Source: Thermithiobacillus tepidarius DSM 3134 (lineage in GTDB: Bacteria > Pseudomonadota > Gammaproteobacteria > Acidithiobacillales > Thermithiobacillaceae). Taken from it: a stretch of 64,000 nucleotides of DNA. A model generated the notes under the pieces. That model ran no database searches, was not told the origin of the DNA, and worked only from the letters and a program-made list of their open reading frames with translations. This document shows positions 12,556-15,908 of this stretch, piece by piece. Position 1 is the stretch's first letter; each line of letters begins with the position of its first letter. Location of the stretch: the NCBI RefSeq assembly GCF_000423825.1, contig NZ_AUIS01000003.1:186001-250000 (forward strand), read 5' to 3'. Made by a program: the position numbers and the translations under genes.

Positions 12556-12584
12556 TTGAGCGTTCTCCACATGTTCTCTATAGT
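12556..12584 (+). promoter_or_regulatory. lexA promoter (sigma-70)
   Basis: A near-consensus pair: -35 TTGAGC at 12556-12561 and -10 TATAGT at 12579-12584 with an exact 17-base spacer. The transcript would begin at about 12591, some 25 bases before the lexA ATG at 12617. The spacer contains the GTTC-N7-GTTC repeat described separately, which is where an SOS autorepressor site would be expected. Confidence 0.75.
12562..12576 (+). promoter_or_regulatory. Candidate LexA operator, GTTC-N7-GTTC
   Basis: Two GTTC half-sites (12562-12565 and 12573-12576) separated by exactly seven bases lie between the -35 and -10 of the lexA promoter. GTTC-N7-GTTC is the LexA box known from Alphaproteobacteria, whereas most gamma- and betaproteobacteria use CTGT-N8-ACAG, which is not seen here. 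Position favours autoregulation; the match alone is short. Confidence 0.5.
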
Positions 12585-12601
12585 AAGAGGGATTCCCTCT
12601 T
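12585..12601. promoter_or_regulatory. Perfect 17-base palindrome over the lexA start of transcription
   Basis: AAGAGGGATTCCCTCTT is symmetric about the central T (12593), immediately downstream of the lexA -10. A perfect 8+1+8 palindrome at the expected transcription start is a strong operator candidate, either for LexA itself as an unusual SOS box or for another repressor. No other gene in the window shows an obvious copy. Confidence 0.5.
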
Positions 12602-12616
12602 CCCGTGGAGAGTACT

Positions 12617-13210
12617 ATGACTCCAAGACAACAGGATGTCCTCAAGGCCCTGCGTGAGTATCAGCAGGAATTCGGCTATGCCCCCACCCTGACGGAACTG
12701 GGCGAACGCCTGGGCATCGCCGCCAAGAGCGCGGTGCGCAAGCACGTGCAGGCGCTGGCCCAGGAAGGCAAGATCCGCCTGACCGCCCAACGCGCCCGCG
12801 GCATCGAGCTGACCGAACTGGGCAACAAGGTGACGGTGCGCCTGCTGGGCGCCATTGCCGCCGGCCTGCCCATCGAGGCCATCGAGGTGCCCGAGGAGAT
12901 CGAGGTACCGCCCTCCTTGCTCGGGTCCGGCGAGCACTACGCCCTGCGCGTCAAGGGCGAATCCATGATGGAAGACGGCATTCTCGACGGCGACATCGTC
13001 ATCATCGAGGCCCGCGAGAGCGCCCGTCCCGGCGAGGTGGTGGTCGCGCTGGTGGACGGGGAGAACGCCACCCTGAAGCGCTTCTATCCGCGGGGGGAAA
13101 CGGTGCTGCTGGTGCCGGCCAACAGTCGGATGCAGCCCATGGAATTCGCGGCCGAGCGCGTCCGCATCCAGGGCGCCGTGGTCGGCCAGATGCGCAGTTA
13201 CCGCAATTGA
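12617..13210 (+). CDS. lexA: SOS repressor LexA
   Basis: DNA-damage response repressor with self-cleavage, 197 residues. The N-terminal winged helix (about 1-65) is followed by a hinge with the Ala-Gly scissile bond in AIAAGLP. The latent S24 peptidase domain has the catalytic Ser in GESMMEDG and Lys in ENATLKRFY. The ATG at 12617 is preferred over an in-frame GTG four codons upstream because GGAG lies at the right distance. The recognition helix reads AKSAVRKH, where E. coli has PNAAEEH, consistent with a different operator. clpS follows. Confidence 0.95.
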
Positions 13211-13287: not shown

Positions 13288-13596
13288 ATGAGCACACGCG
13301 ATCCCAATTACGGCACCGTCCTGGAGCACAAGCCGGAGCTGAAGAAGCCCAGCATGTACAAGGTTATCCTCCTAAATGACGACTACACTCCCATGGACTT
13401 CGTCGTCTATATTTTAGAGGAATACTTTTACAAGTCCCGGGAAGAGGCAACGCGGATCATGCTTCACGTGCACCATCGGGGCCAGGGGATCTGCGGAGTC
13501 TATCCCTACGACATCGCCGAAACCAAGGTTGCCCAGGTGATCGAGGCCGCGCGCCGTAACGAGCACCCGCTGCAGTGCATCATGGAAAAGGAGTAA
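13288..13596 (+). CDS. clpS: ATP-dependent Clp protease adaptor ClpS
   Basis: N-end-rule adaptor that delivers substrates to ClpAP, 102 residues. The core [16 protein letters not shown] is present, as are the [21 protein letters not shown] segment and the C-terminal [10 protein letters not shown] segment, which form the N-degron pocket and ClpA contact. The ATG at 13288 gives the family-standard length. A longer in-frame opening back to a TTG overlapping the lexA stop exists but lacks support. clpA begins 6 bases after the stop, the normal clpS-clpA arrangement. Confidence 0.95.
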
Positions 13597-15877: not shown

Positions 15878-15908
15878 CACGGCGGGTCTTTACCCGCCGT
15901 GTATTTTT
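15878..15908 (+). terminator. Rho-independent terminator after clpA
   Basis: A perfect ten-base-pair stem, CACGGCGGGT (15878-15887) with ACCCGCCGTG (15892-15901), loop CTTT, followed at once by TATTTTT (15902-15908). It lies 29 bases after the clpA stop and ends the clpS-clpA transcript. Confidence 0.92.

Follow-up and report, generated by a model that had tools for sequence, protein, structure and literature searches.

The lexA locus and its promoter

Thermithiobacillus tepidarius carries lexA in the gene order DUF3579-lexA-clpS-clpA, inside the window (the whole 64-kb stretch of DNA that was analysed). The product is the only full-length LexA match in the genome, the other match being the UmuD of a umuDC pair. 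It scores 172.3 bits against the equivalog model TIGR00498 lexA (cut-off 110.95) and contains the DNA-binding domain PF01726 (53 bits) and the S24 peptidase domain PF00717 (98 bits). The cleavage site Ala82-Gly83 and the dyad Ser116/Lys154 are conserved, aligning with A84-G85, S119, and K156 of E. coli LexA. Table 1 collects the features of this locus and of a second site elsewhere in the genome.

Table 1. Features of the lexA locus (window positions) and of the second repeat site (genome:contig:positions)
Feature	Position	Strand	Remarks
-35 hexamer TTGAGC, lexA promoter	12556..12561	+	promoter scan; 17-nt spacer; 9/12 matches
Predicted LexA operator, direct repeat GTTCTC-CACAT-GTTCTC	12562..12578	+	half-sites 12562-12567 and 12573-12578; 11-bp period
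-10 hexamer TATAGT, lexA promoter	12579..12584	+	promoter scan
Perfect palindrome AAGAGGGATTCCCTCTT	12585..12601	.	8-base arms, one centre base; over the expected transcription start
Likely Shine-Dalgarno GGAGAG	12607..12612	+	5 to 10 bases upstream of ATG; inferred
lexA, 197 aa, sole LexA of the genome	12617..13210	+	ATG start at 12617
Codons of the recognition-helix stretch AKSAVRKH (residues 36-43)	12722..12745	+	aligned to E. coli S39-H46
clpS, downstream neighbour of lexA	13288..13596	+	PF02617; context, outside the predicted switch
Imperfect, oppositely oriented box GTTCTCCATTTGTTTCC	G000:C4:81307-81323	opposite to 81333-81349 repeat
Second perfect GTTCTC repeat	G000:C4:81333-81349	-	SRAP / small zinc-ribbon intergenic region

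A promoter scan calls TTGAGC-17-TATAGT upstream of lexA (12556-12584); shuffled sequences gave 0.0 calls on average. The sequence GTTCTCCACATGTTCTC, in which the hexamer GTTCTC occurs twice with an 11-bp offset, takes up exactly the 17 bp between the -35 and -10 elements. The first-pass annotation had reported GTTC-N7-GTTC between the -35 and -10 hexamers and the absence of the gamma-type box CTGT-N8-ACAG, and both observations hold. The GTTC-N7-GTTC core lies at 12562-12576, within an extended form, GTTCTC-N5-GTTCTC, that fills the spacer; it is the single repeat of this kind in the window, and a motif search of all 64 kb returned no CTGT-N8-ACAG.

Chance expectations were taken from an order-1 model of the window, and genome-wide motif scans combined pattern searches with retrieved stretches of the 2,958,498-base genome (43 contigs). 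Under this model, a plus-strand GTTC-N7-GTTC has P about 6e-4 per 100 bp; the full hexamer repeat has P about 5e-6 per 100 bp, or 0.30 copies expected per genome. The genome holds two perfect copies of the hexamer repeat, one in the lexA promoter and one between a SRAP gene and the gene for a small zinc-ribbon protein. The bare GTTC-N7-GTTC motif of alphaproteobacteria was rejected as a predictor of the regulon: its 24 matches genome-wide fall below the roughly 35 expected, with no enrichment. Judged by these observed and chance counts, the extended hexamer repeat is informative; the bare repeat and the palindrome of Table 1 are not.

Recurrence of the repeat in related lexA promoters

Three sources supplied lexA promoters: a search for relatives, a sample of the phylum, and a sample of the class, which is meant here in the GTDB sense and thus takes in betaproteobacteria. 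Of 369 genomes sampled, about a hundred encode a LexA similarly close to that of T. tepidarius. The main comparison set comprises 103 promoters from the class, T. tepidarius itself being left out, whose LexAs are neither alphaproteobacterial nor of the E. coli type; 22 alphaproteobacterial promoters were recognised by the helix and kinship code of their LexAs.

The sister genome, whose LexA is 79% identical, has GTTCTCTCTTCGTTCTC upstream of lexA. Among the 103 related promoters, GTTC-N7-GTTC occurs in 76 (0.63 expected from shuffles) and GTTCTC-N5-GTTCTC in 52 (0 expected); the sample spans dozens of families, and these counts are not independent events because the rows are related to each other. 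N6 and N8 versions of the GTTC repeat are rare, with 4 and 3 cases in the set, and CTGT-N8-ACAG appears in none of the 103. At 33 related lexA sites, TTGnnn abuts the repeat on its 5' side and TAnnnT on its 3' side, the embedding seen in T. tepidarius. Several promoters that lack GTTC-N7-GTTC retain a hexamer repeat of period 11 with altered half-sites, such as GATCTC-N5-GATCTC. Promoters of E. coli-type LexAs present the reverse picture: CTGT-N8-ACAG in 12 of 18 and the direct repeat in none. The direct repeat in the T. tepidarius lexA promoter is almost certainly the LexA operator.

The first-pass annotation had called this element an alphaproteobacterial-type box, a name that is half right. 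The alphaproteobacterial LexA box is a GTTC-N7-GTTC direct repeat (PMC8565304, PMC3323433), and the T. tepidarius element shares with it the GTTC core, the 11-bp period, and the position in the lexA promoter. The half-sites differ, however, being GTTCTC here and GTTC followed by C/T and A/G there: GTTC-N7-GTTC is present in 21 of the 22 alphaproteobacterial promoters, the GTTCTC hexamer form in none. In addition, the T. tepidarius LexA belongs to a different clade and lacks the alphaproteobacterial helix SKSG(I/V)HR. On these comparisons, a better name for the box is the GTTCTC direct repeat of a LexA lineage from gammaproteobacteria.

The LexA lineage

In a first tree, the E. coli-type LexAs, including those of the order-mates of T. 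tepidarius, split off at 100/100. In the same tree, direct-repeat LexAs form a group of 21 rows (97/94) that includes the T. tepidarius protein; a resampled second tree has a weak backbone (40/80), which leaves the protein's exact nearest lineage uncertain. A tree that groups the T. tepidarius LexA with the LexAs of its order-mates is rejected (AU test, p 5e-76). The nearest supported rows (G076, G142, and G221; L222, L223, and L224) come from other classes of the phylum and have GTTC-N6-GTTC, with a 10-bp period, upstream of lexA.

The order-mates (family f2), presumably Acidithiobacillaceae, have a different, E. coli-type LexA and carry the operator CTGTATAAAAATACAG, of the CTGT-N8-ACAG form, in their lexA promoter. 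Because the GTTCTC repeat is common before gammaproteobacterial lexA genes and missing in the order-mates, the SOS switch of T. tepidarius appears to have been rebuilt on a LexA of another lineage. Tree and promoter comparisons suggest that its LexA is probably a member of a gammaproteobacterial lineage whose operators are direct repeats, and we infer the direction of the replacement.

Alternatively, lexA and its box could have been gained together by lateral transfer from alphaproteobacteria. The two kinds of box have the GTTC-N7-GTTC core and its period in common, the gammaproteobacterial and alphaproteobacterial helices share S-K-x-x-x-H-R, and a study cited in PMC3323433 reports a laterally acquired alphaproteobacterial lexA in Acidobacterium. 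Yet the alphaproteobacterial LexAs form a clade of their own (100/99 and 100/100) that excludes the T. tepidarius protein, and the TC extension that marks about half of the related gammaproteobacterial boxes is absent from all alphaproteobacterial ones. We regard such a transfer as very unlikely.

The recognition helix and its half-site

Residues 39-45 of the E. coli LexA helix contact DNA. In the alignment, SPNAAEE at these positions corresponds to AKSAVRK in T. tepidarius; the recognition helix thus differs from that of E. coli, as had been noted, and the suggestion that a changed operator goes with it gains support from the GTTC direct repeat that stands in place of the gamma-type box. The AKSAVRKH helix also deviates from the SKG-VHRY form of most members of the direct-repeat lineage.

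Helix and half-site vary together across this lineage. Where the LexA has K or R in place of E. coli Pro40, both half-sites start with G in 68 of 72 boxes; where it has Q, they do so in 0 of 6 (Fisher p 8e-7 for the contrast). Q has about three separate origins on the tree, which reduces the phylogenetically independent evidence to only 2 to 3 pairs, of which nearly all point the same way. The six Q-helix LexAs (L287, L288, L322, L335, L048, and L336) have ATTCTC or TTTCTC in place of GTTCTC in at least one half-site. The T. tepidarius protein, with K37 and GTTCTC half-sites, agrees with the K/R-to-G pattern. These matched changes are suggestive, not proof, that the residue at the Pro40 position contacts the first base of the half-site.

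The same evidence bears on another reading, in which the repeat is bound by some other regulator, or is a mere spacer, and LexA is not autoregulated. LexA binding here is a prediction, and the recA of T. tepidarius is not linked to the motif, both of which would suit that reading. Against it stand the footprint of the repeat in 76 lexA promoters, the matched changes of helix and half-site, and the position between the -35 and -10 hexamers, and we judge it extremely unlikely.

The 17-bp palindrome

The first-pass annotation had also described a second element, a perfect 17-bp palindrome across the expected transcription start, which is indeed present, and had held that either element could be the SOS box. 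That choice can be decided on sequence: conservation across the lineage and a second occurrence, before another SOS-linked gene, favour the repeat, whereas the palindrome is unique and unconserved. A genome-wide search returned no second copy of the palindrome within 1 mismatch, and it was rejected as a genome-wide operator on this single occurrence. It was not found in the sister lexA promoter, where the best alignment has 7 mismatches, and none of the 103 related promoters has a perfect 17-bp palindrome of any kind. Odd palindromes of this length arise by chance with P 4e-3 per 100 bp, or about 2.8 per 64 kb (order-1 model). The palindrome is a local oddity of the T. tepidarius lexA promoter and probably not a LexA operator. 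Perfect, symmetrical like most LexA boxes, and placed over the expected start site as it is, its lack of copies in the genome and among relatives, together with its chance frequency, leaves almost no likelihood that it is the true operator and the GTTC repeat accidental.

A second site and a small recognisable regulon

The two opposed LexA-type boxes on contig C4 occupy a divergent intergenic region (G000:C4:81307-81349; L158 1366-1408), and paired, opposed boxes are also found in lexA promoters of relatives. The right-hand neighbour is a SRAP gene (PF02586, 277 bits), from the family called 'SOS response associated peptidase'. The left-hand neighbour encodes a 46-aa zinc-ribbon-like protein (MECPNCKK...), whose Trm112p-like match falls just below the cut-off; its place beside the boxes makes it a candidate small SOS protein. 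The SRAP promoter of the sister genome is without the repeat.

Across the genome, a scan upstream of SOS genes gave a mixed outcome for the expectation that the motif would recur there. A perfect repeat precedes SRAP, but the upstream regions of recA (C43), uvrA (C11), and umuDC (C18) contain no box at up to 2 mismatches, and dinB and imuB were not found in the T. tepidarius genome. We screened the 66 genome sites within 2 mismatches for a position upstream of a gene, with crude gene calls by GC frame around them; only those of lexA and SRAP precede recognisable SOS genes. Since no copy of the repeat stands before recA, uvrA, or umuDC, the recognisable regulon is small. The regulon itself may be small; alternatively, the boxes of other targets may be weaker, or separate control may act on recA and umuDC. 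At the umuDC operon (G000:C18:41003-42700; L002), a LexA box of either type is not recognisable.

A proposed switch

We consider it highly probable that the repeat is the autoregulatory operator of a direct-repeat LexA lineage, bound by a head-to-tail dimer, and that the SOS response releases lexA together with the SRAP/zinc-ribbon pair. Two winged-helix domains of a LexA dimer would sit head-to-tail on the GTTCTC half-sites, one helical turn apart and on the same helical face. LexA bound in this manner would cover the -35/-10 spacer and block RNA polymerase. Upon DNA damage, RecA-dependent self-cleavage at Ala82-Gly83, through the Ser116/Lys154 dyad, would release lexA and the divergent SRAP and small zinc-ribbon genes. 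The Thermithiobacillus family would carry this direct-repeat LexA where its order-mates carry an E. coli-type LexA with CTGT-N8-ACAG. Several points count against this account: recA, uvrA, umuDC, and the sister SRAP promoter are boxless, the helix is atypical, the nearest relatives have N6 spacing, and the GTTC-N7-GTTC core does not exceed chance.

Relation to known LexA systems

CTGT-N8-ACAG is the LexA box of most beta- and gammaproteobacteria (PMC3323433). Like the E. coli system, the T. tepidarius system has its box in the lexA promoter, where we predict autoregulation, and a LexA with the same domains and cleavage residues. Unlike it, the repeat is direct and not inverted, the half-site is another one, and the helix reads AKSAVRKH against SPNAAE; CTGT-N8-ACAG itself is present in the order-mates and absent from the T. 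tepidarius window.

A noncanonical LexA of the betaproteobacteria Sideroxydans and Gallionella reportedly controls SOS genes (a 2015 study in J Bacteriol), and its motif is said to be a Bacillus-type palindrome (GAAC...GTTC). Both cases involve an unusual LexA lineage inside the beta/gamma group, but the operator is a direct repeat here and a palindrome there. We know of no solved LexA-DNA structure with direct-repeat geometry. In the open literature covered by our searches, we found no description of GTTCTC or GTTC-N7-GTTC LexA boxes in gammaproteobacteria.

Gene neighbourhoods and the wider lineage

Among 38 related loci inspected by eye, a Y-family polymerase gene comes next after lexA in about 16 and a SulA-like gene in one; three downstream genes tested by Pfam matched PF00817 (two) and PF03846 (one). 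Such neighbours fit the role of an SOS repressor. In one genome (G067), a one-mismatch box stands upstream of an imuA-like/imuB-like pair, the imuA being named by sequence resemblance, and in another (G058), a one-mismatch box stands upstream of a umuDC-like pair.

A bolder reading, in which our doubt slightly outweighs our belief, is that a LexA lineage not described before, which recognises a GTTCTC direct repeat and frequently shares an operon with a Y-family polymerase, may govern a large part of the Gammaproteobacteria. Thermithiobacillus may have exchanged its ancestral LexA for a member of this lineage and been left with a very small SOS regulon that excludes recA, and the first base of the half-site may be set by one position of the helix (K/R or Q). 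With a second widespread LexA/operator pair, predictions made with the E. coli box would miss SOS regulons in many gammaproteobacteria. The lineage would also offer a natural repressor series with joint changes in helix residues and operator bases.

A search of the window for Rfam RNA families found none. A perfect hairpin with 10-bp arms, CACGGCGGGTCTTTACCCGCCGTG, lies directly after clpA (window 15878-15901) and is probably a terminator. The sister lexA (L218 7202-7834, G001) sits in a different neighbourhood, with nfeD-like and phosphotransferase-like genes, named by sequence resemblance only.
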